Shown here: positions 4,209 to 47,811 of the stretch, one piece after another
How positions within the stretch are numbered: position 1 is the stretch's first letter
Layout of the letters: every line of letters starts with the position of its first letter
DNA from: Ectocarpus siliculosus
Lineage: Eukaryota > Sar > Phaeophyceae > Ectocarpales > Ectocarpaceae
Length of the DNA: 64,000 nucleotides
NCBI GenBank assembly: GCA_000310025.1
Contig: FN649732.1
Location: forward strand, 947,712-1,011,711
Direction of reading: 5' to 3'
Notes under the pieces: model-generated
Database searches by the model: none
Told to the model about the DNA's origin: nothing
What the model saw: only the letters and a program-made list of their open reading frames with translations
Made by a program: the position numbers and the translations under genes

Positions 4209-5862
4209 TTATGACTCGTCGTAATCCAAGACGTCCTGTTCTCCTTCCAGCTCGAACCCGCCGTCGTCAATACCGTCTATCGACCCGTCGTCTTCGTCGC
4301 TGCCCGCTGAACCTTCCTCCACAAAAGTCGTCGAAATTGTCTACGAAATAGGTCCAGGCGCAACACAAATTTGTCGACTTTGAGAGGACACACGTATTGT
4401 TTATGATGGACACGCAACATGATGGACGCCAGAGAGGGTTCCTCACGCGCTACAACGAAACCGCGCCATAGCAACTCGGGGGGGTCTCTCTGATCGCCGT
4501 GGGCTAGTCCGCGGCGACAACTCGATGGTCTGGTGTACTGCTGGCTGAAAACACATTTTTTGTGCTGGTTGCGCGGCGCCAGCAGCTTTGGATAGCAACA
4601 CAATTCGCTTCAGTATCTTTATTATGCGCCCCTTATTTGAAGTTATGGCGTGGATAAACGACAACCTGTCTACGAAACACACATGCGGTCGCAGCAACGG
4701 AACGGGATTGGACGCATCCTTACCTTCAACAGCTGAGGTGTCCAATGCACAGACAGACGGGTTTTGTCTTGGCACCACGTTGTTTCTAGCTATCATTTCT
4801 TGTGTGGGTCGTGGGTAAACAACTGTTCCGGCGACACGAAAACCAGCCCATGTGCCTTCCCCTCACCGTTTCCTGACCCAGGCACCCGCCGGTCCTCCTC
4901 GTCGGGCAGTGGTCGGCCCGCTTTTTCGGGTGTTTCCTCCTCGTCTCCACCCCCCCCCTCGGCAGGCGCCCCCATCTCTGTGCCACCTTCCTCCAAAGGA
5001 TACAGCCCTCCCTCGGATGTTTGACCCTCGCCCCCCTCTCCTGTGCAAACGCCCGGATCGCTACCCGGTGTTTCCTCCTCGTCTCCCCCCCCCGCCCCCG
5101 CAGGCGCCCCCACCCCTGTGCCACCTTCCTCCAAAGGATACAGTCCTCCCTCGGATGTTTGACCCCCGACCCCCTCTCCTGTGCAAACGCCCGGGTCGCC
5201 ACCTGGTTTTTCCTCCTCATCTCCCCCCCCCCGCCCCCGCAGGCGCCCCCACCTCTCCACCAGCTTCCTCAAGAGAATCGACCACCTGCCCGGACGTGGT
5301 CTCTCCCTCCTCGGGGTTTTCCCCCCGTGCTTGCTGCATCCAGAGATAGACCGCTTCAGCTGCTCGGGCCATGAAGCATCATCAGTATCATCAGCCGACT
5401 TTTGCGCCGGTTGGATAAACCTTGCGACGAATGCCACGGCGTACCGAGCCCCCCAAAAAACTGAAGATCACGACAAACTCAGCGGCAGAGGCAGCCATAT
5501 CTGGTTTGGCACACGCCCAGACCCAGGCTTGAAGACAAAGCTGTGGGGTCGGTCTTGGTAGGGCCAGAGCGCCAGCAACCAGTCCAGCCAGGAATTCATG
5601 CGGACTCCACTGCAACACCCTCACGACGACCAGCTTCCCCACCAAAAGTAAGACCTTCACCACAGCCACCACGAATGCATCCCGCGACCCGCCCGTGGCT
5701 CGTTCCCGAGCAACCGAGGCCCAAAGGATATACAGCAGCCCCAAAAGACCTGCCACCACGCACGCCTGCACCGATGTGTCGCCCAGAAGAGCTAGAGCGA
5801 CACACCACCATACCAGCATCGTGACGAACCTAGCGATCGTTCCAACCGGAAATCCGGAGTAC
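4209..5862 (-). CDS. Multi-pass membrane protein with acidic Gly/Glu repeat tail (frameshifted as assembled)
   Basis: Unknown family. Read on the minus strand, the segment entering at about 5862 (acceptor ctgcag) encodes hydrophobic stretches: FVTMLVWWCVALALLG, ACVVAGLLGLLYILWAS, AFVVAVVKVLLLVGKLVVV and EFVVIFSFLG. These could form four membrane spans. The frame then breaks at a run of six C and six A on the plus strand (about 5450-5461). The continuing sense sequence (ARYAVAFVARFIQP, then SADDTDD) is in the next frame. It leads into a Gly/Glu-rich tail made of 46-residue repeats (core CTGEG, QTSEGGLYPLEEGG). A final exon 4316-4209 is strongly acidic (GSDEDDGS, DYDES, stop TAA at 4209-4211). 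The donor upstream of that exon lies near 4810-4840 and was not fixed. The 5' end is unknown; the open frame extends to 5966 with no convincing ATG. The shift may be a sequencing error. Confidence 0.45.
4930..5275. repeat. 138-bp coding minisatellite
   Basis: Two full direct copies start at 4981 and 5119 (period 138 bp, 46 codons), with partial copies on either side. Copies share the segment tgccaccttcctccaaagg and differ by scattered substitutions, so the protein repeat is conserved. The period is a multiple of three, as expected for a repeat tolerated inside a coding exon. It forms the acidic tail of the minus-strand membrane protein. Confidence 0.75.
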
Positions 5863-9647: not shown

Positions 9648-12600
9648 ATGGTCGGCGTGATGGATGCTCGTTCGGCGCTCAAAGCGGCAGGACTTTTCGG
9701 CTTGTGCAACCTACTCGGACAGAGCAGCGGCGTGCTTGCCGAAAGCCATGCACCTCACCACGACCGTCGTGGCCTTCAAACCAGCTCAAACATTGTGTTC
9801 ATCGAAGCCGTTGTAGGCACGGCATTCACCACTGATGAGCAGAGCGGGCTGCAGCTTCAGGTACAAACTGAGTGCCGGGTGTTGGGCTCGGAAGGTTGAG
9901 AATTTTATGCTGCGGTGATTGACTGCCTGCCGCTGCTGCTGCTGCCGTGATTACCTAGTTCCCCGCTCCCGGCGCTTCTCCACACGCGCCTCGAGGGTCT
10001 GCTGTGTCTACAGAAGGTTAGCCGAAACCAATTGTTGCTGGTACCCACTAACTACAGCAGTTGCTGTACAGCAGTAGACTGATTGTTTGTTTGCCCCATT
10101 GATGTCGACCACAGAACGCTGAGCGCGGTGTGGCCGGAGATGCGGCGACGACCATCACCACGTCTGCCACAGCGCAGGTATTTGAGACGAGTTTAGACAT
10201 CTTCGAAAAATTCGTATTGGCGCGTTAGCCATATGGAGTTTGGGGACATTTGCCCACAATATACAGTGTGTGTATGATATGTAGAGTATTGCTTTATTTA
10301 TACACGTGGCAGCAGTAGACGCACAGTAGCACATTAGACTAGACTAGAACCCAACCGTGATGTACAGTTGTGCTGCTGTTTTTGTGGAAGAAGACGTGTC
10401 TTGGTTTTCTGAGTCCGTCGTGTGTGTCAGCATGACCATCATGTAGTATCGTATGTGGCTCTCCTGTGTAGCCGCTACCTGAATACCGGTATCTGTGACG
10501 CTCTCTCCTCTCGCTGCTTCTGCCACTTGCGACCTACCGCGTCCCCTCTTGTTTACAGTACGAATTTTACTTCACGCCGCCGAGCATCGCAGGGGCCACG
10601 GTAAGAGCGTCGCGTGGATGCATGCTTGCCACTTTGTCACATGACACGCATCTATGGGGGAAGTAGCCCCCCACCCCCGCACGCGTGACACGTTTGTATT
10701 TAGCGGGGGGTGGCGCACATATGGGCAGGGACAACTCTGGCACTTCAGACTTTTTTCTTTGGCGTGGTACATTTGTGGTACGTATATAGCAGCAGAGGCA
10801 CGACGGCGGCTACTGTACAGGCAGGGTTCCGAATTTCCTTTGGATCTCCACCCTTTCTTATGCTACATGTACGATTGTAACGTTCCAAGGGTGTGCAAAA
10901 AAAAATTACGTGATTTGTTCCGTGTAAGCTCCCAAGTGGTCGCCAGTTGCTACATACTTTCGAGTATTGTCGAACATGTTCTTGTGATGGTACCGACGTG
11001 TAATGACGGTAGGTGTACAGGTAGTACCGACTTGTAACGACGGTAGATGGACGATAACAAATTTGTCTGGCGTTCACCAACGCGTGGCCGGGGGCTAGTG
11101 AGGGGTGGTTAGGTGCATGGAGTGGGGGAAGGGAAAAAAGCCCAGGAACTCCAACATTGAGTGCGTGACGTAGTTTTGTTGTTCCCTCCCCACCTCTAAC
11201 ATGTGCGATGCGTTCTCTCTCGGCATGTGGAAGTACAGCAGCAGTCATCGAACACCTCAAGCCCTTCTTTGTATTGTCGACTACAAAAAAGAACTCGAGT
11301 AGTGTAGTGTAGGCATCTTCTGGGTCGATGTTGCAGCGCGTGCAACCCATTGTCGGTATCGCATGGCATGGATGGTCGTTTACCCGATACCCTTTCTTGT
11401 TCTGACAGGGTTTCACGCTGAGCTTCGTCGGGCAACTGGATGGTGCGGATTGGACTGTCGACATCTTCGATTTCAGCACCGATGTCAACACCTGGGTCAC
11501 GGCGGGCACCCTAACAGGGAGTAAGTTCTGCTCGCTAATCCTACGATATTTCGCCCGTTTTGTCTTGTCCCAAGCGTTCCAATAATGGCGGCTTGTGAAG
11601 CCCAGCTTTGTCGGGCGATTGGGCACCCATGCCTGGATAATGTTTTCTCATTCCACCCTGTGTAAAACCGTGCGTGCCTTGCTTACGATTCCGTCGTGTC
11701 TACTTCACAGTGACTACTGCTGGGTGGGGGGACGTCGACATCGACTTCCCCACCACGACACCTGCCAACTTTGTCGCGGATACGTCGGTAGTACTGGTAT
11801 GTGGTCAACTCGCCGAAGAAATTGGGGCAAATCTCTGGCCTACGTAGTGGTGTGTGTCGAGGAGATTGAACCTAATTGAGTCAGACTATTCGTTGCCCGG
11901 TGTCGATCACGTCGGAAGAAGTAGCGCTTCAGAAAAGCGTTCGGGTTGTACTGCACGAAAGTTCCGCGAAGAGTGCTGTCGAGATCTATGTCCGTTCGCT
12001 CATGCATTGCGCCCGCTCGGCTCTACCGGTGTTGTTCAATGCCAACCCACCATTTTCACATGTTTTCGAGTGCGCCAACGAACCACCCCTCACCCCTCCT
12101 CACCATTATGCTTGCCTGTCGTCGCCGCCGTCTGTCGTCGTGCCTTTTCCTATCCTTGTTCTTTTGTGTCTGCCACCATACGCATGCTACCTGGTGCCCG
12201 AATATCCCGCCGTGCCGCGGTGCCCACTGCCTTGACTCCAGCTGCAACTGACCGCCACTAGTACTGATGTAAGCAACCTTGGCAGAAGGGGTTGCCCAAG
12301 TATGTTTTTGTCGCTCTGGTACAACTGTTATACCCTGAGAGCGAGATGCGGCGGTGAAAACTCGCCTTCATAGGAAGCCGCCACCAGCACTGCACTAGGT
12401 AGACGTACTGCTGTGGTGTACAAGCAGGAACACTCAACTGGTGGTCCGGTTGGGTGACACATATTTCGCTTTCGTTTTCATGGAGAAGATGTCCGATGCA
12501 TCTACCCTATACCCTAACCCTAGCCCTAGTCCCAGTGCCGGCGAACCGGTTCTCCTTCAAAGCGCTACTTTTGCTACACATTACATGTGCATGTATATAC

Positions 12601-15600
12601 AGTAGTTGTCAGATTCTACTGTTTTGGCTATTGCGAGTTGTCTGCTGGTCGAACACTGAGATATATTCACACCCATTCCTGGCCAATGCACTTCTCTACT
12701 CTACTCTTTTCTACTCTCAGGTGGGGTACCTCGACTACGTTGCGGTGAACGCCGTCGGAAGCGCACCAACGCCGACGCCCACGGCCCCACCCGTAGCTGC
12801 ACCCGTAGCTGCACCCGTAGCTGCACCCGTCGCCGCGCCTGTTACCCCTGCCGGGGGCGCCACCGCCGCATTCGTGGGGGTAGAGTCCGGTGCCGCCATC
12901 CTGGCCGATCAAATCGGGGGCTCACCACTCACGGTGAGAGCATCCTCGACTCGCGACTGTAGTCTACACTACACTTTGTACGGTGACTCTGAATAGGCAT
13001 CCGTACACTCTGTATGTTTCATGCTGGAGAAGCTGAAGGTCCTGTAGAATATTCCGTCGCCAAGACTCGCGTCGTCAAAACGTTTCTGAACCTCGTCTAC
13101 GCTGCATCGCTCGTGCAGAGTGCTGAAGAGGCGGCCACTAGTGACACGAGCGCTTCTATCGAGTTCGCGGCTACGTCCAGCGAGGCTGCCGCGGTAAGGG
13201 GCTCGACGATTCCATTGGGCCATCCTAGGGATGCTACTATATGGAGGGATGGAAGTAACACTTTTTGTCCCAATTTCGCGGATGTACTTATGCAGGGTAC
13301 TTGGGCCGAGTTAGCTTTATGGTATTCTGGATGCGGGCAGATTCTCACCGCACACAGTTGATGATACAACCGAACAACCGTTAGGTTGCAAACTGCTGTA
13401 GAGAGGTATGTATACGTCAGTGGCGGCCGTCTCTAACCATCGCGGCCAGATCCAAACGCTAGGTGTCCTCGACGACTCCGGCGCGCACTAACCCATGTGT
13501 CTTCCTCAATCTTGCCGATTCTTGAGGTCTAACGGGTTGGTCGATTCTAGGCATACATGTCAACATGTCAACCTTATCCGGCCCTACGCCTGTCCTGACT
13601 GGCTCCACTCGACTGGTACGTTCTTACACTTCCCTCTATTTGCCCCTTGCATGCGAACAGTACGAGATGTACTTCCCCGCACCTGCGGCCGTCACGGGCC
13701 CGTTCACGATCACCATCACTGCACAGCTGGGCGCCGGCGCCGTCGCCAGCGACTGGAAAGTTGACATGTACTCGTTCTTGCCTGTAGACAGCGACGCCTA
13801 CTTCGAGGTCGGCGATCTCACCGGTGGTAAGCCATTCAGCTACCTATTCGTGGCACGTTCCACCATGTAGCCGACGGAGGTGTACTGTAGAAAGTCGTTT
13901 CGATAGATCACCGTTTCCACCATTTCCGCAAGCTCCGTTCGCTCTTTCTCCGCGTCTGGGAAACGACGCGAAATCGTTTCAACCTGATCGGATATTTGTA
14001 CATGCCCCATCCTTGTGCTGTTTCGTTTTCTTCGTCCGCAACCTTGGTGCTTTGTGTGGCAGTGACGTCTGGATCTTGGTCGACCATTACCCTTACCTTC
14101 GATCCCGCGACCCCTTCCAACTTTTTGTTGCCGAGCGCCATCGAGTACCTGGTGAGTGTACATGTACCGTAACTGTACCTATCTTCTTGTGTTCGAGCAC
14201 CAGGGACTCATTAATCACGTGTTGTACGGTAGTTTTGAAATTGTCGATTGGGGTCACGTGGACGAAGGTCTGGGAGGTCTGAGTCAACTTGTTCCGCAAT
14301 GAAGCACCCTGTCGGGCGTGAAAGCTACTGTACCATTTGACACTTACCTCAAGGAGAACACATGTGATGCATCAATGTTAATGTTGCTAAAGCTCCGCCT
14401 CTCTCCTAACACTTTAGTCTTACCCCGTCCTATTCCCCCTGACGCACGCAACACTTTGCTTGTGCACTGCAGGTCCAGCTGAGGACCGAGAGTGCCGGTG
14501 CCCAGGTACGTCGTCTAATGTAGCGTCCCCACTACAGTAGCGTACTAGTGTAGAGTCCACCTCTACAGTAGTACGTTCGACCTCCACTTGGTAGAGAGGC
14601 AACCGCTGGAATGAAGGTCCTTCGGAGGACCTGCCTACTCTTCGACGTAAATAGTCCTGTTTTGCGCACGTTGTCGTTGTCGTTGCTGCTGTTCCCTCTG
14701 CACTTCGGCCAGTCCATCTACGTGGACCAGATCGTCGTCTCTGACGGAGCACAAGGGCCGTCCCCTACCCCAGTGACACCTCAACCCGTTGCTGGACCGA
14801 CTACGCCGCCTGTCACGGCTCCACCCGTCGCTGGGCCGACTACGCCTCCTGTGACAGCTCCGCCTGTGACAGCACCGACTGCTCCGCCTGTAGCTGCCCC
14901 CACGGACGGGGCCACCGCCGCGTTCGTGGAGGTTGTGAGTGGTGCCGCCATCCTGGCCGATCAGATCTCGGGCGGACCACTCGCGGTAAGAGCATCCTCG
15001 ACAACCTGTTAATTATGTTACTCTGAAATAGGTATCCGTAGGCTGTGAGCATCTTGGGGGAGAAGACGATGACGGTGACGGTCCCGAAGAGTACATGTGT
15101 TCCATCGTCGCCAACATTTTCGTCGACCAGCTTTTTTTCGAACTCTATGCTTGATCGGCTCGTGCAGGTTGCCGACCAGGGGGCCACCAGCGACACGGAC
15201 ACCTCTATCGAGTTCGCGGCTACGTCCGGCGAGGCTGCGACGGTAAGGGGCCCGACGATGCCATTGTGTCACCTTAGGGAAACCATACCATGGAGGCTGG
15301 ACGAACATAAGTATTTCAAGTTTGTTCTTTGTTCGCCGATCGTCATAAAGGGTGTTTGAACCGAGTTAGCCTCGTGGCGTGCTGGATCCGGACGGATTGC
15401 TCACCCGAAACACTAGTTGTTCTCGACGATTCCGGCGCGCACTGCATGCGTCTTGCTCGATTTTGCCGTCGAGGCCGAACGGGTTTGTCGATTCCAGGCA
15501 TGTATCCCAACCTTTGTCCCGCCCTGTGTTTGGTGCAGGCTTGTTCTGATTCCTCCTAGTTCCCTCTATTTGCCCCTTGCATGCGAACAGTACGAGATGT

Positions 15601-18600
15601 ACTTCCCCGCACCTACGGCCGTCACGGGCCCGTTCACGATCACCATCACGGCACAGCTTGGCGCCGGCGCCGTCGCCAGCGACTGGAAGGTCGACATGTA
15701 CTCGTTCTTGCCCGTAGACAGCGACGCCTACTTCGAGGTCGGCGATCTCACCGGTGGTAAGCCATTCAGCCATCCCTCGCACGTTCGGTCATGTAGCGGA
15801 CGGCGGCGTAATAAGCTTCGTTGGTACTCCGCTTGGCGATTCAATGGAATGAGGCACTGTCTTCCCAACTAGTGTGTTGTCATGCACGAAATGACCGTTT
15901 GCTCCCAACGGACGCAAGCCGGGAGATAACGTGAGATCCCTCCAAACCTGATCGGATTTATGCACATGCCCCATCCATGTGCTGCTGTTATTTTTTGTCC
16001 GCAACCTTGTTGCTTTGTGTGGCAGTGACATCTGGATCTTGGTCAACCATCAACCTGACCTTTAATCCCACGACTCCGGCGAACTTTTTGTTGCCAAGCG
16101 CCATCGAGTACCTGGTGAGCCTAACGTCGCGATTCTTCTTGTGTTCGAGCGCCTGGGAAACAAGGAGAGCTTGAAGCATTGAGTTGAAACTGTCGACTTG
16201 GGGTCATGTGGACGGAGGTCTGCGAGGTCTGAGTCAACTTGTTTGTCGATGTAGCACCCTGTCTTCGACGGGAAAGCTACTACCCTACTGTACCCTTTCA
16301 TACCATACCAAGTTCAAGGGCAAAACTTTACCACAGAGATCCTACTGTTCCCTAACCGTTTTTCCTTGCCCTGTCCTATCCCCCCTGACCTACGCAACAC
16401 TATGCTTGTGCACTGCAGGTCCAGCTGAGGACCGAGAGTGCTGGTGCCCAGGTACGTCGTCTAGTCTAGCGTCCCCACTACAGTAGCGCACAAGTAGAGG
16501 CAACCTCTATTTAGTACGTCCAGCCTTCGCGTGGTAAAGAGCCAAATAGAGGAGTAAAGGAAAAAGAACGGCCTTCGGAGGAGCTAACTAGCCTTGAGAA
16601 CAACATTCTTATTTCGTCTTGCGCACGTTTTCGTTGTCTTTGCTGCTGTCCCCTCTGCACTTCTGTCAGTCTATCTACGTGGACCAGATCGTGGTCTCTG
16701 ACGGAGCGCAAGGGCCGTCCCCTGCCCCAGTGACAGCTCAACCTGTAGCTGGACCGACCGCTCCGCCTGTGACGGCTCCGCCCGTTGCTGGACCGACCGC
16801 GCCTCCTACAGTTGCCCCTACCGTCGCTCCTACAGTTGCCCCCACGGTTGCCCCCACCGCGCCGCCGACCCCCGGTCCCGTCCAAGTGGACATGGTCCCC
16901 TGCATCTTGGCCTCGGAGTCGGTGGTGAGTGGAAAGGACAGGACAGGACACATAAATGGATTGCGGTGTGCAGTTCCTTGTGTCCATAGATAGCGGGGTA
17001 TCCGGTGGTGTCGTGTCGACCATCGGCATGTGTGGCGTGATTGTCTCCCCCCATTGGCTTGCCAAGGTCCCGCCGTCACACGAGCATGGCATGGGTAGGA
17101 CAAAGGTCTCTGGCCGCAGGATGAAAATGCCGGACTCGGACGCTCCATGACGGACCCAAACTGATCATCCTTCGTTGCGTTTCTCCTCCTGTCCGCAGGA
17201 GAAGGACGTGGGTCCCGTGGCTTCGGCGTACCTGTTCAACGAATTCTACAAGGGCTTCTGGACCGCCACTCAGGTAAGGAAGGCCTTCTATCGCAGCGAA
17301 GTGTAATCGCATACTTTGGAGGAGGTGGATGCAGGAGAGGGTAGCACTAGTATATAGAGCAGGTATTGGTCGGCGAAACGCCGGTAGTGGTTGCCCCCAG
17401 GCCAGTCTGACTGGCTGGACGATGACCCACGTCTCGTACCTTGCGACCAGGAAGGTACATTCATCGCGATCTAGTTGTTGGCTCGGGAGAAAACGAGCGG
17501 TTACCGAATCGCGTTGGTTGAGACTTGTCTCTTCCAGTACGTTGTTTGAGTGAAAGGCGGTAGAAACACTCCAGTGAACCATTGTGAATTTGGCATTGCT
17601 TTTCTGAGGTGCTCTCCCTCGTAGTGACCTCTGGCGCTGCGAAAAATGGTTGTTGTTGTTCCCATCCGTGGACCCCCCATCCGTGGACCCCCCAACCGAC
17701 GTCGCCCCGTACCTTTACGTTGGCCTTGCCGATGCGTGCCACCGGCATCAGAACGTCCAAGCACCCCCTGCCGCCGTGCTGGACCTCGTTGAAGCTTTGG
17801 ATGCGGACCACGGCAAGTGCAACGTCGTCTACGTCGGCATCGTTCCCTCTGCCGCCCAGAAGCAGCAGCTCCAAGACTACTCCCGCAAGTTCAACGTAAG
17901 CTGACGACGGTTTCGGGTGGCGTGGTAACTGCTGTGCAACCTCCAACGAAGCGGAGCACTTGGAACACAAGCACAGCGCATCGTGTTCGTATGGACACGA
18001 CCTTGTCTTGTGGTAGTGGCCGCGGTATTTCATATCAAGCTTTTCGATCGTGGTGTAGGAAATTCCTTCTTTCCGTGAGCTTTTTGGATAACCTCGTGCG
18101 ATGGCCGCGTGTCTCCAGGTACCTGCTAGAGTCTAGTCTACTTGCCGCGCATCTTTCCGCGCGTTCGGCATCACGTGCATCTATGTCACCTGCTGTTACT
18201 CTTTGCTCGCGCCGTCCTTCCTTTCTGACAGGTCCGCATCGTTTACTTCGACGCCGCCGACACCATCCTCGACACGGAAGTCCAAGCTAGGCTGGGCATG
18301 CAATCCAACTTCGACCAACCTTTCGTGGGCGCGCCCAGGGTCAAGCGGACAGGTTTGTGTTTGAGGGTCAAGCGACCACAGTAGTGACCTGTTGACGTGC
18401 TTTGGGGGAAGTGCATCCTTGACGTTCACAACGCATGCCCGCGGGTGCCCAACGAAGGCGCAACTCGACTTGACTTGGCGCATGTTTTCCCCGTCAATTC
18501 ACCCAACCCCAACGGTTTCTTGCTGTATTGACGATACGCAGGCGGGTCGGCAGACAGCATCGCCCCCGCGGACATGCTGACTGACCCCAGCCAAAACAAC

Positions 18601-21600
18601 CTGTTCAACAGACCGGTCGTTACCACGGTAGACACTCTCCCGGCCGGCGTCAGCATCATGGCACAGTGAGTGATGATGCACGACACCACGCCTATTGGAG
18701 TACTTGCCCGAGAACCCTTGGTTTCCCCTGGATGATAAAGCTGGGTCACGTAGAACCGCAGCGAAATATTTTTTCGTTCTTGGCAGCAGCCCTTGATCGA
18801 TCAGTGAAGGGCAAACAAAAGAAACCGGCATGCATTCATTATTATGAAGAACTGATTCTATGCCGTCGAAATCGAAGAGAAACATGGCAACGTGTTGGGT
18901 TGGCCTAGATTTGGCTTCAGCGTCCGGAAAGAAAGAAAATTGCTTGCCTCTTTGTAGCATCAATCGACCACTCATGCACTACCGCCTATTTTCTGGATTT
19001 GTTTTCACGTTTGTACCGTCGTCATCATCATCATCCATCATCAGGTACGCGGACGAAAATGGTGACGTCATTGCTGGCGTGCTTGCGGGCGTCACTAACC
19101 CCGAGAGCGCTGCCATCGTCGAGTACATCGGCACCGACGGTCTGGAAGAGATGCACGTGTTCGTCAGTCTGGCTTGGTTCGACACAGGATCATGGGCGTG
19201 GGGGCACTTCATCTCCGAGTGGGGTACCCGGGGCATCTTCCAGGCAAGAGCCACACTTAGTTTGGCTTTCGACAACGGCACCACAAAAAACAATGCGGAT
19301 CGGCACAAGAGGTTGTCGCGGATAGTGTTGGTACCAACGACCAGACCACGCGATTCAATGGTGTGACCGTACAACTTTGGAAAAGGCTCAGACCGACTAC
19401 AACGTGTTCGCCTGTGGTAGCCGTACGACATCCTACAAGCTACAAGTGTGTACTGTAGCTTCCACCTCAACATCGTTCGTTCGCACACGTTCCGAAACAA
19501 TGCCAATGGCGGGCGCTTGAGCTAACTCCGAACCTCGTCGACATCCTTCTGGAATTGTTCTCTTCTCCTATTCCCAGGGCGAGCGCCGCTTCTACCTAGG
19601 AGGTGTCGTCGATGATCTGTTCCTCTCAACAGGTGGGTGTGGTACTGCGGCCTCAAGCAAAATCGAACGAACGAGATGCATACGTTTACATAGTTCACGA
19701 ACGGGTGTAGCCAAGATGCTGCCGACAATGTCAGACTTGAGGATGTTGGCTTTGTGGATACACTACTGTATCCCTTCTTTCCCTCGTAGGGAAGGGAACA
19801 AGTTTTCGACGACGGTGGGAGGGTATGCATGAACATGAGCCTTGCACACTACGGATTGTTCGGAACGGAGGGGAGGTTAGCCTGTAGATGTAGATGTCCG
19901 AGCCACTGGGGCACAGATGCAGAAGAAGCGAACCATATTGTACATATCACATGACCGTTTATCCACGTGCCACACCTTCAGGTGTCTGGATTTACGACCC
20001 TCCATCCTTCTTCGGGCCGGAGGTGAGAGAAATATACTCAGTATTGTTGTTCGATGCAGTCAAAGCAGTCGATGCAAGCGACTTTCACTGTTTGGCCTTT
20101 GGCCTTTGAGCCTTTGAGGATGCGACGATGGAAGCGTCGCGGGGTTCCCCCCGAGAGGCCGAGTACACGCATGACCACCAGGGGAAAATAAAGCGTTTCA
20201 GAAAAACATAAACATACTTGTATACATACTGGAAGTATTGGTATTTTAGTGCACTCCGTATTGCTTGCCTCCTCGAGCAGCAAGGCTGCGGTTCAAAAGG
20301 AATGCCTCGGGTACTGCATGACGAGCTTAGCGCTGATTCCGACTTACCTGCTGGATACTGATTCCTGTGTCGTGTACGCATGTGTATCCGGCTTGTTGGT
20401 GATTTTTTTCCGCCCCACGCAGGAGAGACTTTCGGGAGCCGACCTCCAGAAGTTCCAGAACTCGGAAGCGGCATTCAACACCGCGTACGGAGCGTCGGTG
20501 AAGACAGAGCACGCCTTCAACGGGCTCGGTGTCCTCGACAAGGTGACAACGACAAGGGTAGATGGTAGATAGCAAGGAGAAAGCGCTCGTTGGTGGTGGC
20601 TACTGCCGAGATGCACGTTTCGACTGTGGCGTGCGTGCTGTTGGTTGTCGGAGCGCCAGACGGGCTTGCCTTCATAACACAAACACGAGTTGGTTTTGAC
20701 GGCCATTTTTCAAGACTCTTGATGATTGCTTAGAAGGTAGCTTACCGCAAAGGTTGAGACGTTGCTTCCTCTTGATGTTCTGTCGCGATGCAATACTGAC
20801 CATGCACAGGTGGGGTCTACGCGGAGGAGCTGGGTGGGTGCCGACGCCGACATCGGCCTGCTGCCCAAGGGTGACCCGCCGAACCCCAGCACAGGTGCGT
20901 TACCCTTGCCGCAGCAATCAATCAACCGATCTCGATCCTGGGCACGCCGTCAGCAAGAGCCGAATCTCATGGAATACCGAATCAACATGCAATCGTGACG
21001 TGTCTGTCTGAACCACCGAATACACACGGATGTATATGAACATCCCTCAGGTATCCCCCAAATCAGCGACCCCAACTGGCTGAGCACCCAGTTCAACCCG
21101 GCGGATGGAGAGCTGGGGATGCAGGACGACTACGACGCCGGGCTGTTCGATTCCGACGACCTGCTTGCCCGCGTCCAAGCCGACCTCGACGCATTCTTTT
21201 GGCAGAGCCACACCATGACCCACCTCGCCCGCGACAACCTTGGCAAGAACGACTGTGACATCGAGGACGGAGGTGGGTGGTTTCTGTCACGTCATGTCAC
21301 GTCATTTCATGTCATGTCATGTCATGTCATGTCATGCAGTCGGTGGCCGGTGGGGAAGAGTCCTTTTTTGTTGGCACTCCCGTACATGCATGTGGCAGGT
21401 CGACGTCGAGGTGACATTCCAGATATAATATTACTTGTCGAAAGCGTTCGGGTTAGGGTTGGGGTTAACGTCATCTGAATTCTGGTTTACCCGCGGCCGG
21501 CCGCCAACGCCTTGCCCAGGCAACGTACGGATGGCTATAATGTTCGGCATGTTCGACAACGACAACTACAACTGGCGCAGCATGACGAGTCCGGGTATCA

Positions 21601-24600
21601 CGGGGCTGTTCAACCCCAACTGCCTCCAGTCCGGCGACGAGAACCTCATGAAGTGCTACCCCGGGGACAACACCTACAGCGGACCCCCCCTGACGGACGT
21701 GTTCCTGATCAACGAGAACAACCAGTTCCACTCCCTCACCACCACGGTCGGCACGAATGGTGAGAGAATGAGAGAATGAGAACAAAGGAGTCGTTGGGAA
21801 CCGTGGTGTGGCTGTTGTCTCAACCCTTTCGTCTGGAAGGTGGCACGGACATCGCCGTTTCGTGTCGACGCCGAGATTTTGGGCGCCTTGTTGATGGGGA
21901 GTTCGGCTGTCTTACGAAGACACTGCAAGTTCCATCCCATATCTATTGCAAAGCGCACGCCGCGTGTTGACAGTTGGCAGCGTCCGTGTGGTAGCTGGAG
22001 GGAGGTATACGTCAGGAAGAAGCTTGTTGAAGACGGGGTTCCGAAGGCAGAAGCGAGACAAATCTCAAGAAACTTCTCGTGTCTGTGTTGCTATTGGCTG
22101 TAACCCCTCCCGATAACCGGTCCTCCCGATGTCTTCTATTCCTCGATTTTTTTCAGGTTACGCTGGAATGCAGATCGTCCCTCGCTTTGCGACGAACGTG
22201 TACTACAACTGTGTCACGGGCCAGGTAAGGGTAGATCAGGATGTACTTTTGGACCAAGGGAGAGAGGGAACGAAATCAATATTGGTGCCCTTCGCAAAGG
22301 CAAGGCGACTAGAGAAGGGCCTCTCTTTGTGGCCGTCTTTCGCTGCGTCACTCACACCCGTAGCACGGCCTGGCTGCACGTATCCCAGCCGACAAGTGCT
22401 GGCTGCACCACGAAGGTGATGTGACGCGAAGAATAAACCTAACAACCCTCGTTGCGCCTCTCGCCCCGTGACCATGTTCTTTTTCCTTTCTTGCTGACTG
22501 CAGTGCCTCATCGACGAGAACGAGAAGATCCGTCGTGACGTGTGCGGCTGCACCGACCTCAACCCAGCCAACCCTCAGGTACATTGTGCGCGTGAAACCG
22601 GTGCTACTTGCGCGCCGACCGGAGGAGACATGGGCCCTGCCACATGCTCATGCTTTGCGTTTGGCCCACCTTGTTTGTACAATAGTCCACAATAGTCTAC
22701 AATTGCAACCTACTGTAAACCCCTCGTTGCTTCGCTCTGTGTCGTGGATTAGTTGCAGGCGTGCTGCTTGGTCAGCCGCCACGATGCAGTGCCACGGTGC
22801 AAGACAACACTGTCTATGCAACGTTGCCGCGTAAATCTGTGTCTTGTGACTAACGAACGCGAGGTGTGCACCAACCCTACCCAAACGCGTCCCTCCCATG
22901 TTCAATACAGGGAACCTGCTCCGCTTGCCCCTCAGGCACCCAGAGCTTCAACGATATTGCCTCTTCCGACCCGTCGATCGGACCGCTCGAAGCTCTCTTC
23001 CAGACGGAGGAGCGAACTACTACCCGCTACATCCTCACCGGACGCAGGTACAAATACGGGTGGCCGGTCTCGCGAGTCGGCGATGCTGTCGCGAGCCGCC
23101 CTCTGGATTCTTGGAACTACGCGCAGAAGCTCGAGTGCAGATCATTTTCTTTTCGTGGAAATTTGTGGGCGCCGAAGCGGGCCACTTGCCGTTGGCAGTG
23201 AGGGCACATCGCTTGTTCTTCCAGACTAGGTGCTTTGGCTCTTTCAACGTTGTGCAAGGGCATTCTCCTGAACGCAGTGTAACCTCCCCCCCGTGCGCGC
23301 GCTTCTGTGCTTTTGACGGCGACAGAGACAAGTACATGTTCCACCAAGCGAACGTGATCAGCACGACTTGGACCACCGACACGTCGGACCCGATGTACGT
23401 CAGCCCCAGGCCCACCAACAACCCTTCTCTCCTCGAGTACTGGTACATCCGCGTCCTTGCTGAGATGGCCAGGTTCATCAACACGGGTTCCTTCCCCATC
23501 CAGGTTGGTACTGAACCATTGCTGGCTTTCCTTTTCCAAGTGCTAAGTTTACATTCCGGAGCGAGAGTGCCTGTCTTCGACATCGTGGTGACCCATGCTC
23601 CCCAGGGGCAAGAATACCACAAAATAGGGCACCTCCACAAATGATTCGACGAGGGCACAGCGTTTCGTTCCAGCTTCGCCCCCGGCCGCAGCCCTCAAGC
23701 CAAAGGGCGTTCCTTCTTTCGGCGACATCCAGTCCCTCTCACTCACCCCGTTCCGACCGTCCCTGTGTTTGCTTTGTATGATGGAGCAGACTCTCAAGTT
23801 CGACAACCTGTGCCACAACTTCTACCAGCACGAGGACCTGGACAGCTCGGGTGCCGTTCTTACGGCCACCAAGGACCCTTCCGGTGCCATCACCGGCTTC
23901 TCCCTCGAGACTTCTTCCAACAACGGCGCTCCCATCCCGTTGACGGTCCCCACAGCTAGCGCCGCGGAGGTACGCTGTCCGCTTGTTGTTCGTCGCACAC
24001 CTTTTGATTGGTGGATGAATGTGCTGCAGTTGCTGGTGCTTGGCACGCGAAAGACACGCGAAGGCAGTGTTTGTGCTGAGTGCATGCAAAGCTGTTGGAA
24101 TAGTTCGTGCTTGAGAGGCGCATGCATCATCATCATCGTCTAAACTCGTCTCCCACACGTTTGTTTTTTCTCTGGCGCCCTCGGGTTCACACGACAGATC
24201 GATCTGATCTTGGCCGCGGGCACCCTGTCAGCCTCTGCGACCGAAACCTACGGCGCCGACACCACCTACACCTTCGCAGCAGGCACGCTCAACACCGGCA
24301 CCCTCTCCAAGCCCGACGTCAGCGAGTGAGTCTATGGCTTGATACCATACCTGACTGGTACAATACCCTACCCTTGTCCGATAGACCTATTAATACCTTT
24401 TCCTACGGCAAGAGATGACATTGTCTCTCCGTCTGATGCTTCCCCGTTACGCGTGACCCTAGTGACCCTAGCGCGGTCGAGCGCATACACCACCGTTACC
24501 TTCACTCATACGTCGTCAGCGTTGTTTTTTCGATCGGGATATTAAACGTGGCGTGCCCCCGCGGTCTACGGGAAATTGGCTGGTAACTATCGCCACTGAC

Positions 24601-25308
24601 CTCCCGATGTGCCGCCCCCCGCCCTGCGTCCACTCTGTTGGTTCTGTGTGCCACGTCCTTGTCCCTCGTCCTTCTCCTCGTCCTTAGGCTCCCGACCATC
24701 CCTCAGGCAACCCTCACTCCGGCTGAACAGGAAGTCGTTGAGGAAGCGGCGGAGGCGGAACTTGAAGAAGAGATCTCATCCATCGTCGATGTTGCGGTAA
24801 GGTCCTCGCTTTGGCCCTTGTGGCTGTTCTGAAGGCCTTGTATTTTTCGGGGTTTTGAGTTGGTGTGTATGTTGCTCTACTGCAGCTGCCAAGCCAGTTT
24901 TCAACAAAGGTCTAGCTAGGTGTGGGTGTGTTGGAACACCAGAGAACCACAACCCTTACAATTACGCAATCCCTTTGGCATGTACCCTGCAGCATCAGAA
25001 CCAAATGCAAGGCGAAGGAGATTCTGTAAAATTTGGAGCATCAAAGAAATTGTACTGCAGAACGTTTTTAGTGTTTTCTCTCGTGATGAAAGAAGTGAAA
25101 TAGTCCATAGAACAATTCGCAGGCTCGTGCCATCTTCGACACCCAACAATGTGTTCTCATCCCCTTGTGCTTTCGTAACGTTTATTGATATCAGGAGGAT
25201 GCCCGGGAGGACATCGAAGAGGAGGCCGGCAACCAAGGCTTCGTCGTGGAGGACTTGGCCGGAGAAATCCTCGTTGATCCTGTCGAATCGGCTGCCGAAA
25301 CTCCCTAG
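9648..25308 (+). CDS. Secreted Agd3-like (CE18) polysaccharide deacetylase with three N-terminal beta-sandwich modules
   Basis: The model has 36 exons, about 1,522 residues, ATG 9648 (or 9660) and stop TAG 25306-25308. Residues 1 to about 28 form a signal peptide (LKAAGLFGLCNLLG). Residues about 45-190, 225-385 and 435-595 are three repeats of one putative carbohydrate-binding beta-sandwich module (motifs QYEMYFPAP, DWKVDMYSF, YVDQIVVSDG), joined by Pro/Thr/Ala-rich linkers. From about 675 on, the protein follows the fungal Agd3 pattern: a CBM87-like region, then a NodB-like motif 1 (GGVVDDLFL, about 948-956), motif 2 SHTMTH (about 1092-1097), TTTVGTNGYAGM, FATNVYYNC and YMFHQAN (about 1290). 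The Asp plus His-x3-His set matches metal-dependent de-N-acetylation. An acidic tail (EEAAEAELEEE) ends the protein. Exons are 9648-9860, 10115-10177, 10559-10600, 11409-11520, 11711-11796, 12242-12268, 12721-12933 and onward to 25195-25308. The exon at 17609-17895 breaks phase, and one intron uses a GC donor. The substrate is unknown; Agd3 acts on galactosaminogalactan. Confidence 0.72.
12721..14985 (+). repeat. Beta-sandwich module 2 (exons 7-12) of the deacetylase gene
   Basis: The exons are 12721-12933, 13119-13193, 13661-13826, 14063-14151, 14473-14505 and 14713-14985. The module runs from GATAAFVGVESGAAI through QYEMYFPAP and the short exon VQLRTESAGAQ to SIYVDQIVVSDG. It is bordered by phase-0 introns on both sides, so it can be duplicated without a frameshift. 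It is nearly identical in its central exons to module 3, which lies 1.93-2.05 kb downstream. Confidence 0.8.
14713..16924 (+). repeat. Beta-sandwich module 3 (exons 12-17) of the deacetylase gene
   Basis: The exons are 14713-14985, 15168-15242, 15591-15756, 16026-16114, 16419-16451 and 16670-16924. Order, lengths (75, 166, 89 and 33 nt) and phases equal those of module 2, and the start of the intron after each 166-nt exon is also conserved (gtaagccattcagc). The closing exon adds a Pro/Thr/Val-rich linker (APTVAPTVAPT) before the deacetylase region. This is direct evidence for a segmental duplication covering exons and introns. Confidence 0.8.
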
Positions 25309-31400: not shown

Positions 31401-34400
31401 GAACTTCTGTGCGGGGATGGCCTGACCTTGTCTGTAGAACAGATTCATCCTTTCTCGATGGGGGGGGGGGGGTGTACTCATAGTCGTGCATGCCGTAGTC
31501 GTTAGACCATTGACCTCGCATCCCTACAAAGCCGGGACGGAGCACGCCGGGTTCTCACCGGACCAGGCTCTCACATCACCAAGCGCGAAGCACCGTGAGG
31601 TATTCGGCGAGTCGCATGAAGGATGAGCTGCATCCTGCTAAGGGTGTTCGGCATCTTGTGCTTACTTCCTTGCGTACGGATGACAGCTGCGCATGACTTA
31701 ATTTATTTTCTGGTGCGTTCACTTCCAGAGACAGTTACAAGCACTGTGTAGCTGCCTCGAGGATGCTTGACCATTTTAACACAATGTGGTGCGATCATCC
31801 CCCTTGCCCGGAGTGAGGTTTCTCCACCCCGCACAACATGATCTACTCGACCACCATTATGGTTACCGCCAAAAAAAAAAACGAGGTAAAAAACAAAAAA
31901 CGGTAACCTGGTTGCCAAGTTCACGAAGTGAATTGGCTTGTTTTACAACGTCGTTGCCAAGCGACGAAAACCCAATCCCGATGGCAAACACCGTCGTGCA
32001 TGCCGTAGTCGTCAGACCATTGACCTCGCATCCCTACAAAGCCGGAACGGAGCACGCCGGGTTCTCACCGGACCAGGCTCTCACATCACCAAGCGCGAAG
32101 CGCCGTGAGGCATTCGGCGAGTCGCATGAAGGATGAGCTGCATCCTGCTAAGGGTGTTCGGCATCTTGTGCTTACTTCCTTGCGTACGGATGACAGCTGC
32201 GTATGACTTAATTTATTTTCTGGTGCGTTCACTTCCAGAGACAGTTGTAAGCACTGTGTAACTGCCTCGAGGATGCTTGACCATTTTAACATAACGTGGT
32301 GCGATCATCCCCCTTGCGCGGAGTGAGGTTTCTCCACCCCGCACAACATGATCTACTCGACCACCATTATGGTTACCGCCAAAAAAAAGCCAGAGGAAAA
32401 AAAAAACCGGTAACCTGGTTGCCGAGTTCACGAAGTGAACTGGCTTGTTTTGCAACGTCGTTGCCAAGCGACGAAAACCCAATCCCGATGGCAAACACCG
32501 AGGGGGGGGCTTGTTTTACAACGTCGTTGCCAAGCGACGAAAACCCAATCCCGATGGCAAACACCGAGGGGGGGGCTTGTTTTACAACGTCGTTGCCAAG
32601 CGACGAAAACCCAACACCGGGAGGGGCGGCATGTTTACAACGTCGTTGCCAAGCGACGAAAACCCAACCCCGACGGCAAACACCGGGTGGGGGGCAGGGG
32701 GCAGGGGGGGGGGGGGGGGGCACCCTTTATTTTTTGCCCCCCTTACGGGTAAAACCTTTGCCCCCCCCCCCCCAAAAAAACGNNNNNNNNNNNNNNNNNN
32801 NNNNNNNNNNNNNNNNNNNNNNNNNNNNNNNNNNNNNNNNNNNNNNNNNNNNNNNNNNNNNNNNNNNNNNNNNNNNNNNNNNGGGGGGGGGGGGGGGGGG
32901 GGGCGTACTCTTATGTTTTGCACGCCTTAGCGGTTAGACCATTGACCACGCGTCCTCGAGAGTACGGAGCATTGTTCCCACAGGACCGATCACCGATGGC
33001 CAATCGTTCCTTCCTACTTGCCAAAGGTGGCTCAAAAATGTGTTCCCTAGATTATCTATCCTATTGATATCACTTCTCGATGGGGGGTGGGACATTTACC
33101 AGAGCTGAGGGTCCATGCCCACGACGAGGAACGCTCATGGTGCCCAACAGCCCACATGGACCACCGAAATTCTTGAGGCCGTAAAAAAATGTTTTCGTGG
33201 AGGTTGAACAAAGGACTAAGACGGCTAGTGGAAAAAACCGAAACTAGACCCAGAACTTCGGTCCGTCGTTCATGCCAACGTTCTACCCCCGTTGCCCCTA
33301 GCCCAGCGTAGAGAATACTTGAACGTCAGAACTTAACGCTAGTCGCAACCCTACCTGTTCAATAACGCCTTACATGCTCGTGTGATAGACCGAACATGTA
33401 AATAAATACAGCGTGTGTAACGACCTGACGTCAAAGGTGTCCCATGGGAGCATGGAAATGGGCGCAACGGCTGCTGCGGGTCGGTTGGTCAGTAGACACC
33501 GCCATGTGTTCGGCCAATGTTAAATGTTCTCACAGAGATCGATCGGACTTCGTCCACAACAACCAACTGTTCCAACACGTTGTGGCCGTGCTGGCTCGAT
33601 ACTCTACAATTGTGTTCGTCACCGTGACGTCTTTCGGAGATCATGTGCAACACGGACACGCGCCCCTTCGAAACGGACGGGTCGTCGTTCTGTGCATTCG
33701 AGCGCTGAGGCGCGATTGAGACTGAACATAAAATCTTAACGAACCGTGTCACTTGAAAGCAAAACGTTGCGAATAACAGTTGCTGTAGTGCTGTAGTAGA
33801 CCGAGTGGAGTTCCTGCAGCGAGGAATGGCAAGGTAAGGTCTCATAGGATGGGGGAAGAACGAACTCGTAGGATGGGGGAAGAACGAACTCATGCTCGCC
33901 CTCCCTCCTACCCGAAACACGACGCAGTATGTACTGTTATGTTCTGTTCTGTTCTGTATCGCACAACAGCAACGTGAGAGTGACGCAAGGTAAGACAAGA
34001 CAAGATACACCACAACACAATACCCGAACGAACAAGCGCTTCTTTTCTGCACAAAAAAAAAAAGAAACAAGGCACGGGACGGCACACACACAAACCCCAA
34101 AAGCCGCCCTTGAAGACTCCCTCCCTCCCTCCCTCACTCACTCACTCCCTCACTAACTCACTCAACTCACTCATTCACTCACTCACCATGAACCACATGA
34201 GCCAGAACCTCTTGTCCTTCACCACCTGCTTCAAGCTAGTCCCCGTCGCCGCCGCTTGCACCTTCCCGTGGCCCCTGTTGTTCCTGCCGCCCTTGGGAGC
34301 AGCTGCGACGGGCGGTGGCCTGATGACGGTGGATCCCAAGGCGGCCACGAGGAAGTAGATGAGGGCCAGCTTTCGGAGCATGACGGGGAAGTTAGCGTAG

Positions 34401-45698: not shown

Positions 45699-47777
45699 AT
45701 GGGCGTGAAGGGCGACCTCAAGGCCGCGCGGGCGAGGATGCAGGCCGGAGAACCTTCTGAGGCTTTCTCCATGATCCAAAACATCCTGGACAGCTCCCAC
45801 CCGGACCTTAACGACGCGCAGACCCTGTATGCGGTTCTGGTGACGTCAGGGCTGGCGGCACTTGCGTCGCAAGACTTGACCGCGGCCGAGTCCAGCTTCC
45901 GGCGTGCGGCCGACTCCATCCCCGACGCCCCCCAGGTGCATTTCAAAGAGTGTAAAAAGGTGTGGTGGTTTTTACGGACGTGAGTTTTCGAAAAGGTTTA
46001 CCGCTGTTCGCCTGTTTGTACGCAGAAACGTGTGTTTGAGTAGACTAGCGCCAGACTAGATGGAGACGACCACACACAGCTGTCCACATGGCTATTGCTG
46101 TGACACCTCGGAAGGTGGGAAGTCTTGCTCGGAGGGGAACGGTTTCGAAAAAGCTGTTTCAAGACGTGCATCTGAAGAAACAGACGGCAACTGAGGTGTT
46201 GGCATTTCAAGTGCTGTTTTCTCTGAACACTCCAAATGTAGTCTGCCATCTATACTTTAGGGCTGAACCTTGGCAACTTACTGCCCGTCGAGTTTTGGCC
46301 GGAGCTGGTATGAGGGAGGTCAACTGGTCTCACGATATTTGCCGATGCAAATGCTCATGGTAATGCTGGACATATTTAGCCTCGTGCCAGCCTTCCAGAT
46401 ACTGTATGCCGAGTCCCCAGTTCCTTCAGTACCCCGAAATGTAACCAACACCGTCATTATGGCTGCTGCTAGTACAGGCCTGTGGCGGGTGTTTGCTAGG
46501 TTGTGCACAGACCAACCCCCTACAACCATGACTCCAAATCGTTTTATACCAGACGTAGAGCACTGACCATTTTATCTCAGTGTGAAGAGCGATGAACATC
46601 CGCCGTCCCTACTCCTTGATTAGTCCAACTTGCAGCCCTCGTAAATCTTCGTCCCTATCCCTACCCCCAAGGCGTGGAAGGGGCTGATAGACTGCCTGGA
46701 GCGGTCGGGGGCGGAGAAGGTGGGGGCGCTGCCGGAGTGTCTCTCGCGAGCCGCCGAGATCGCAGAAGGGAAGGGGAACCTCGCCAGGGCAAGAGGGCTA
46801 AGGCTAAGGCTGGGGACGGTGTTGGATCACCTCGGCAGGAAGGAGGAAGCCTTGGAAGCGGTGTGTCTCTTGGGTTGTTGCATACCACGTACTGTATTAG
46901 TTTGCTGACAGGCGAGCGTTTCCTCCCGCCACACCAATCCCTAGCTGATGCCACGGAGTGTCTGTTAGTTTCCTTGTGTGTTTTTGCGGAAGGGGTCCGT
47001 CTCGTGATCGACGTGACGCGTGTGTAGGACGAACGCTTTGTTGTGTATTCGCCGTGAAGGATTATTTGGGCGGGCATCCCAGGGCCCACGCCCGAACCAC
47101 AAGTTCTGTACTTACCCACGTGTGCTGCCATGCCCGTGTGAAGAGCACACCTCGTACTCCAGCAACTGTATGCATATCAGTGTGGGAAACCGTAGGTTCC
47201 AGCGTCGCTCGAATCTGTCGTGCTCACGCCAAAACGAACGTCAATTTACAGGTGCTGCGTCATCTCGACAGCCCGGAAGCCATGGCCGCTGCCGCTGGGG
47301 ATGGCAGCGGCATTTCCACAGCGGCGACCGAACGACTCTCGCTGCTGCTCCTCGCCGCCGTTCTCGAGACCGACGAAGAACAGGCGGCCGTCGCAAGGAG
47401 AGTAGAGAAACGCCTGGCCAAGGACAACGGCGGCGGCGGCGGTATCAGCTCGACGGCTAGCGGCACTTCTACGGCAGGCAGCAGCAGCAGCAGCAGCAGC
47501 CGTGCCGCCGCCCTGGCCTTCGATTACCGCGCCAAAGCCCTGGCCAAGGATGATGATAGCGTGGAGGGCGGCGGCCGGGTCGCGAAACGCCTGTCTGATG
47601 CCATGGAAGCGTTGCTCGAGGTGGGACAATCGCCAGCGGATGAGGGTGGTAGCACGGGAGGGGGCCCCGACGTTGGCGGTGGCGTGGGCGGTGCTCTCAC
47701 TCCCGACAACGTGGTGTTGAAACCTCTGGTGGCTAGGTTCTGTCGCGCCTACCTTGGGAGAGCCGTGCACCGCGCGG

Positions 47778-47811
<34 letters not shown>

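Follow-up and report, generated by a model that had tools for sequence, protein, structure and literature searches.

Gene model

The window, a stretch of 64,000 nucleotides of contig FN649732.1 from the brown alga Ectocarpus siliculosus (contig C7 in the numbering used here), carries a gene of 36 exons whose product is predicted to be a deacetylase of the CE18 family, resembling the fungal enzyme Agd3. The protein begins with three modules on Pro/Thr-rich linkers, followed by a CBM87-like region, the CE18 catalytic domain and an acidic tail (Table 1).

The model of this gene, predicted from the sequence, is sound. The ATG at 9648 and the stop codon at 25306–25308 give the boundaries already assigned in the first-pass annotation, which was made from the sequence alone. 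The exons are 27–273 nt long and, when joined, form one frame without an inner stop; the introns are 156–808 nt long, 34 of the 35 being of the GT-AG type and one (19244–19577) of the GC-AG type. The sole doubtful junction, the start of exon 19, was fixed at 17752 by comparison with a near twin of the gene on contig C21, which shares the exon plan of the window gene over the part compared. An alternative start at 17625/17626 was rejected because it clashes in phase with exon 18 and the twin places the acceptor before 17752. It is highly improbable that the gene is a pseudogene or a set of wrongly joined exons: the GC-AG intron could be taken in this sense, as could an in-frame stop in a related gene (copy D of an array on contig C12, in the exon with DNYN*RSM), but the single open frame over 36 exons, the exon plan of the twin and an overall dN/dS (ratio of nonsynonymous to synonymous substitution) of 0.18 between the two genes argue against it.

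CE18 catalytic domain

The assignment to CE18 follows from a profile match and four catalytic motifs. The Pfam profile PF25115 (Agd3_CE) matches with 140.4 bits (cut-off 27.6), and Agd3 (PDB code 6nwz) is the only match among all PDB sequences at E up to 10. The query in both searches was an earlier version of the C-terminal half, the first 42 residues of which were intronic, which leaves the catalytic part unaffected. When seven single-exon stretches were compared with Pfam, two matched PF25115 (2e-6 and 1.1e-4), one gave an unrelated weak match and four gave none.

The five motifs from which an Agd3-type catalytic half had been proposed in the first-pass annotation are all present on the forward strand and in the order claimed: GGVVDDLFL in exon 19578–19632, SHTMTH in exon 21051–21272, TTTVGTNG in exon 21520–21759 (the codon of its last glycine is split by an intron), RFATNVYYNC in exon 22157–22224 and YMFHQAN in exon 23326–23503. 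The comparison of the Asp-Asp and His-x3-His residues with Agd3 places D903/D904 and H1045/H1049 on D377/D378 and H510/H514. In the sequence alignments all six catalytic residues named for Agd3 (PMC7229062) have their counterparts in the algal protein, the metal ligands as well as the acid and base; the matches to the profile and to the sequence of 6nwz have E values of 9.6e-41 and 2.3e-31. Published Agd3 numbers equal the chain numbers of 6nwz plus 122, an offset that fits D377, H510, H514, R613 and H668 alike. The motifs DD, HxxxH, PR and MFHQ are retained in all eight CE18 copies of the genome.

Accessory regions

The N-terminal half contains three stretches that match PF14741, GH114_assoc (E 2.6e-47, 160.5 bits against a cut-off of 22). 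Three modules on Pro/Thr linkers ahead of the catalytic half, putative beta-sandwiches, had been recognized at first pass and are found at residues 48–193, 230–385 and 442–597, but they had been considered novel, and this view has to be given up: they belong to a named family, and the unusual point is their position before a CE18 domain. PF14741 takes its name from GH114 proteins. Residues 1–891 gave no match in NCBIfam, and module 3 gave none in the PDB. Module 1 is 32–36% identical to modules 2 and 3. The latter two are 88% identical to each other in the window gene and 97% in the C21 twin, while between the two genes they are 79–81% identical. Being closer within each gene than between paralogs, they were either homogenized, as by gene conversion, or duplicated separately within each gene.

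The CBM87 profile PF25116 matches all five of the algal copies submitted (out of eight in the genome), at best with 1.8e-6. W869 of the window protein, by a position counted by hand, aligns with W344 of Agd3, the residue of the carbohydrate-binding module whose loss reduced binding most (PMC7229062). The sequence of this region is strongly diverged.

Beyond the catalytic domain, the phmmer alignment reaches chain residue 649 of 6nwz, inside a probable C-terminal domain in which Pfam gives no match. The acidic tail noted earlier is borne out by 25 Asp/Glu against two Lys/Arg in the last 90 residues. A tethering to the wall or matrix, also proposed, gains nothing from the sequence of the protein itself: the hydropathy over 19 residues does not exceed 1.41, so that there is no membrane span, and by eye no GPI-type tail (glycosylphosphatidylinositol) was found; the protein may be retained on the wall by its modules, if these bind glycans.

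Table 1. Location of the gene, its domains and catalytic motifs, and related loci in the genome. The first 15 rows refer to the window, the others to contigs of the assembly. CM, catalytic motif.
Feature	Location	Strand	Basis
Whole gene, 36 exons, 1474-residue protein	9648..25308	+	one frame, single terminal stop
N-terminal leader, possible signal peptide, residues 1–47	9648..9788	+	sequence alone
GH114_assoc module 1, residues 48–193	9789..12756	+	PF14741
Pro/Thr/Ala-rich linker 1, residues 192–231	12751–12870	+	composition
GH114_assoc module 2, residues 230–385	12865..14748	+	PF14741
Pro/Thr/Ala-rich linker 2, residues 398–437	14785–14904	+	composition
GH114_assoc module 3, residues 442–597	14917..16705	+	PF14741
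Pro/Thr/Val linker 3, residues 610–656	16742..16882	+	composition
CBM87-like domain, residues 672–892 (limits approximate)	17202..19580	+	PF25116, weak
CE18 catalytic domain, residues 892–1298	19578..23503	+	PF25115, E 9.6e-41; 6nwz, E 2.3e-31
CM1: D903 (predicted base), D904 (predicted metal ligand)	19611..19616	+	Agd3 D377, D378
CM2: H1045, H1049 (predicted metal ligands)	21209..21223	+	Agd3 H510, H514
CM3: R1155	22183..22185	+	Agd3 R613
CM4: H1245 (predicted acid)	23342..23344	+	Agd3 H668
Probable C-terminal domain (residues 1299–1401); acidic C-terminal tail and stop (residues 1402–1474)	23790..24688; 24689..25308	+	6nwz alignment extends into it; composition
CE18 near twin	C21 ~3.51–3.53 Mb		
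CE18 array, five copies (A and D among them)	C12 736–846 kb		
Single CE18 copy	C12 2.45 Mb		
GH114 genes	C26 5.095–5.107 Mb (at least 3 in a row); C2 4.843 Mb; C5 1.313 Mb; C13 0.291 and 1.090 Mb		

CE18 paralogs in the genome

Profile and protein searches of the genome (189 Mb in 492 contigs), combined with spliced alignment, revealed at least eight CE18 copies: the window gene, its twin on C21, the five-copy array on C12 and one further copy on the same contig. A match of 32 residues was also seen at C3:6085533 (5.8e-4).

The window protein and the C21 twin are 88% identical (1245 of 1410 residues), and this pair is under purifying selection. The dN/dS is lowest in the CE18 domain (0.071), followed by the CBM87-like part (0.10) and the N-terminal half (0.27), at a dS of 0.36–0.41 (0.39 overall). 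In a comparison that covered the C21 gene and about 4.9 kb upstream of it, the DNA similarity is confined to positions 9684–24832 of the window.

The array copies appear to have a different front end. A profile of the modules gave no GH114_assoc match from the C12 CE18 loci. Four of the five array copies are instead preceded, on their own strand, by cysteine signatures of the WSC type, eight in total (the upstream part of gene A lay outside the comparison). No such signature was found in the window, at the C21 locus or at the single-copy locus on C12. Among five array-upstream open reading frames (ORFs) compared with the WSC profile PF01822, four match at 0.002 to 5.9e-6, all below the cut-off, and one gives nothing; the matches cover the C-terminal half of the profile alone, as though introns divide the domain. 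A sixth such ORF is a Pro/Thr linker resembling extensin, below the cut-off of that family. Order and strand suggest that the WSC-like half-domains are part of the array CE18 genes. A long (PTTAP)n linker was noticed upstream of at least one array copy. The surroundings of the motifs drift among the copies, with HHTLIH in the array and TTT in place of TTV in copy A.

Relatives in other organisms

The CE18 family was founded on a fungal enzyme, and homologs are described in fungi and bacteria in PMC7229062, which also gives a count of 266 eukaryotic species. The window protein resembles Agd3 of Aspergillus fumigatus in its catalytic domain, in which every motif keeps its residues, in the order of (CBM87-like) binding module and catalytic domain, and in the start of a probable C-terminal domain. 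It differs in the acidic tail, the weak CBM87 match and the lack of a recognized gene cluster, as well as at its N-terminus, where Agd3 has a serine-rich stretch (PMC7229062) and the algal protein has three GH114_assoc modules instead.

With algal and fungal CE18 queries, none of the 59 pattern matches in bacterial genomes was confirmed. After two Burkholderia CE18 proteins had been added as queries, 12 of 67 loci were confirmed, with 21–29% identity; bacterial CE18 proteins occur in Pseudobacteriovorax, Burkholderia, Acidobacteria, Actinomycetota and Myxococcota. The catalytic residues, compared in the two Burkholderia proteins, are alike, and two Pseudobacteriovorax proteins have CBM87 before CE18, the order in which the CBM87-like region and CE18 stand in the window protein. 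Both Pseudobacteriovorax loci have DUF3492-GT4 genes on either side of the CE18 gene, with a leucine-rich repeat protein and a protein of the NDP-sugar (nucleoside diphosphate sugar) epimerase family nearby, and are putative exopolysaccharide loci; no DUF3492-GT4 genes were found in the algal genome, in a search that can miss genes split by introns. CE18 was confirmed in none of 25 and none of 48 viral contigs, and on plasmids it was found in one record with the algal query and in two with the fungal query, all from Burkholderia stagnalis.

A tree of 22 sequences unites the eight algal copies in a single clade (support 100/100) on a long stem of 1.98 changes per site. The neighbour of this clade is a fungus together with one Myxococcota fragment, with a support of 92/92 only, and a grouping of the algal copies with Pseudobacteriovorax is not rejected (approximately unbiased test, p 0.081). 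No donor is therefore named for an origin by transfer.

GH114 genes and the search for a synthase

The genome contains 14 matches to GH114 exons, among them six N-terminal exons, of which three lie on C26 and the others singly on C2, C5 and C13. With the profile of the modules, no significant GH114_assoc match came from short loci surrounding GH114 exons. Five further GH114_assoc matches were observed on C24 (2.301–2.313 Mb) and C48 (227–230 kb), contigs with no GH114 match.

The profiles of the PelF type (DUF3492, PF11997) and of PelG (PF16933) gave no candidate in the genome, where genes split by introns can escape such a search; each profile gave a match in one of 14 control genomes. The effect of introns is seen in the genes under study, since PF25115 missed the C21 twin and PF14741 missed the modules of the window itself. 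The absence of a synthase of the PelF/PelG type is therefore only suggestive. Spherulin4/GH135 (PF12138) gave no match in the genome, and the controls were equally silent, so that no conclusion follows.

Proposed function

The window gene probably encodes a secreted metal-dependent N-deacetylase that is held on glycan and acts on a polymer rich in N-acetylgalactosamine (GalNAc) ahead of GH114 enzymes. D904, H1045 and H1049 would bind a divalent metal; D903, stabilized by R1155, would serve as the base and H1245 as the acid. The enzyme would remove acetyl groups from the polymer, as fungal Agd3 does, with the CBM87-like domain lengthening the binding cleft and the three GH114_assoc modules on their Pro/Thr linkers most likely anchoring the enzyme to glycan. 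Galactosamine stretches exposed in this way would then become the substrate of the GH114 galactosaminidases of the alga. The sequence supports the chemistry well, and not the substrate or its owner; we infer that the protein is secreted and active, that it is specific for GalNAc, that its modules bind glycan and that it acts jointly with GH114.

The pairing of CE18 with GH114 in this proposal comes from the GH114 exons on C2, C5, C13 and C26 and from the frequent proximity of CE18 and GH114 genes in bacteria and fungi (PMC7229062). The GH114 enzyme Ega3 is specific for deacetylated galactosaminogalactan according to the same source (PMC7229062). The biological effect of deacetylation differs between fungi: in A. 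fumigatus it favours adhesion and biofilm (PMC4817252), whereas in Neurospora the acetylated form glued particles better (PMC11356417), so that neither effect can be transferred to the alga as such.

Several observations weigh against the proposed function. The catalytic part is only 32% identical to Agd3, and the signal peptide is only plausible. Among ten ORFs scanned beside the window gene no GH114, synthase or epimerase was recognized. The link between CE18 and GH114 is not universal either, as no GH114 was found among eight neighbouring proteins scanned at the two Pseudobacteriovorax loci or among the names of 15 annotated features at one Burkholderia locus. As to the expected CBM87 domain, the PF25116 match of the window copy lies in the correct place, but at 0.0013 it falls under the Pfam cut-off and leaves the first 76 positions of the profile unmatched. 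Furthermore, when the PDB was searched with a profile of five algal CBM87-like regions, 6nwz was not among the matches with E up to 1, the best of which are zinc-binding lipoproteins (0.015 and weaker).

As to the owner of the substrate, it is possible, if short of an even chance, that the target lies in the matrix of the alga itself, such as a minor amino-sugar polymer or a glycoprotein glycan whose deacetylated, cationic form would crosslink alginate and sulphated fucans. This would be in line with the purifying selection between the window gene and its twin and with the matrix-type modules, namely GH114_assoc and, upstream of the array copies, the WSC-like half-domains and the extensin-like Pro/Thr linker. 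Against it, the known polymerase of the PelF/PelG type was not found in the genome, and literature on such an algal polymer was not met among the best matches listed.

It is more doubtful that the target is foreign, that is, that Pel-like or galactosaminogalactan-like polymers of bacteria and fungi living on the alga are deacetylated for cutting by GH114, the dispersal of the biofilm serving as defence or food. The missing synthase favours such a microbial target, while the matrix-type modules and the steady selection fit a target of the alga's own equally. CE18 and GH114 are both multi-copy, and the title of a paper has Ega3 disrupting microbial biofilms. The synthase, however, may be of a different kind or, like other exon-split genes, may have been missed, and in A. 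fumigatus deacetylation works in the opposite sense to dispersal, promoting adhesion and biofilm (PMC4817252).

A shift to another N-acetylated glycan, for example polymers of N-acetylglucosamine or N-glycans, appears unlikely. In that case CE18 membership would no longer tell the substrate, as the long algal stem, the diverged CBM87 and the drift around the motifs might suggest, but the window copy keeps the catalytic residues of Agd3, the Trp that matches W344, and SHTxTH, TTV and AGMQ.

A more far-reaching reading, with the odds against it, is that brown algae possess a separate, expanded CE18 and GH114 system, apart from fungi and bacteria and without the known synthase. Its secreted deacetylases, with GH114_assoc or WSC front ends, might unmask for GH114 the galactosamine polymers of microbial biofilm on the thallus or an amino-sugar polymer of the alga's own, as yet unknown.

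Relation to earlier work

GH114 has been reported in brown algae at about five genes per genome, with no role stated in the passage concerned (PMC11468063); the term CE18 is absent from the main text of that paper on brown-algal enzymes. The first-pass annotation had regarded an amino-sugar polymer as unusual for brown algae, and this has to be narrowed, since GH114, a frequent partner of CE18, was already known there, while the CE18 part was not met in the literature searched. CE18, CBM87, GH114_assoc and WSC are each known; what appears to be new is the combination of three GH114_assoc modules with CE18 and the expansion of CE18 in a brown alga, neither of which was met in that literature, which consisted mostly of best-matching listings (supplements and protein databases were outside its scope).

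A CE18 family in an alga suggests that the alga makes or attacks an acetylated amino-sugar polymer. At least eight copies beside GH114 genes would turn the GH114 entry of brown-algal enzyme lists into a testable pathway, and raise the question whether the alga itself produces a galactosamine polymer within its polyanionic wall or breaks down those of its microbes. In either case the outcome matters for the wall chemistry, adhesion and fouling of seaweeds.

Other features of the window and genome

The EsV-1-7 family is expanded in brown algae. The genome gave 150 matches to this domain, all 150 scored among 880 candidates, and a brown alga is thereby the most likely host, in keeping with the algal origin read from the window alone.

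Rfam gave no match within the window. An open frame of 709 codons at 46949–49078 (+) has no Pfam match at E up to 0.1. On the opposite strand, the ORF at 51108–52238 (-) contains a copia-type gag domain (PF14223, 2.5e-6) and is a retroelement remnant. The segment 28890–29172 is a dispersed repeat, with 78–79% identity to three sites in the C12 region compared, and tandem repeats are present at 4929–5270 (period 138), 32442–32673 (66/53) and 48986–49295 (127 bases).

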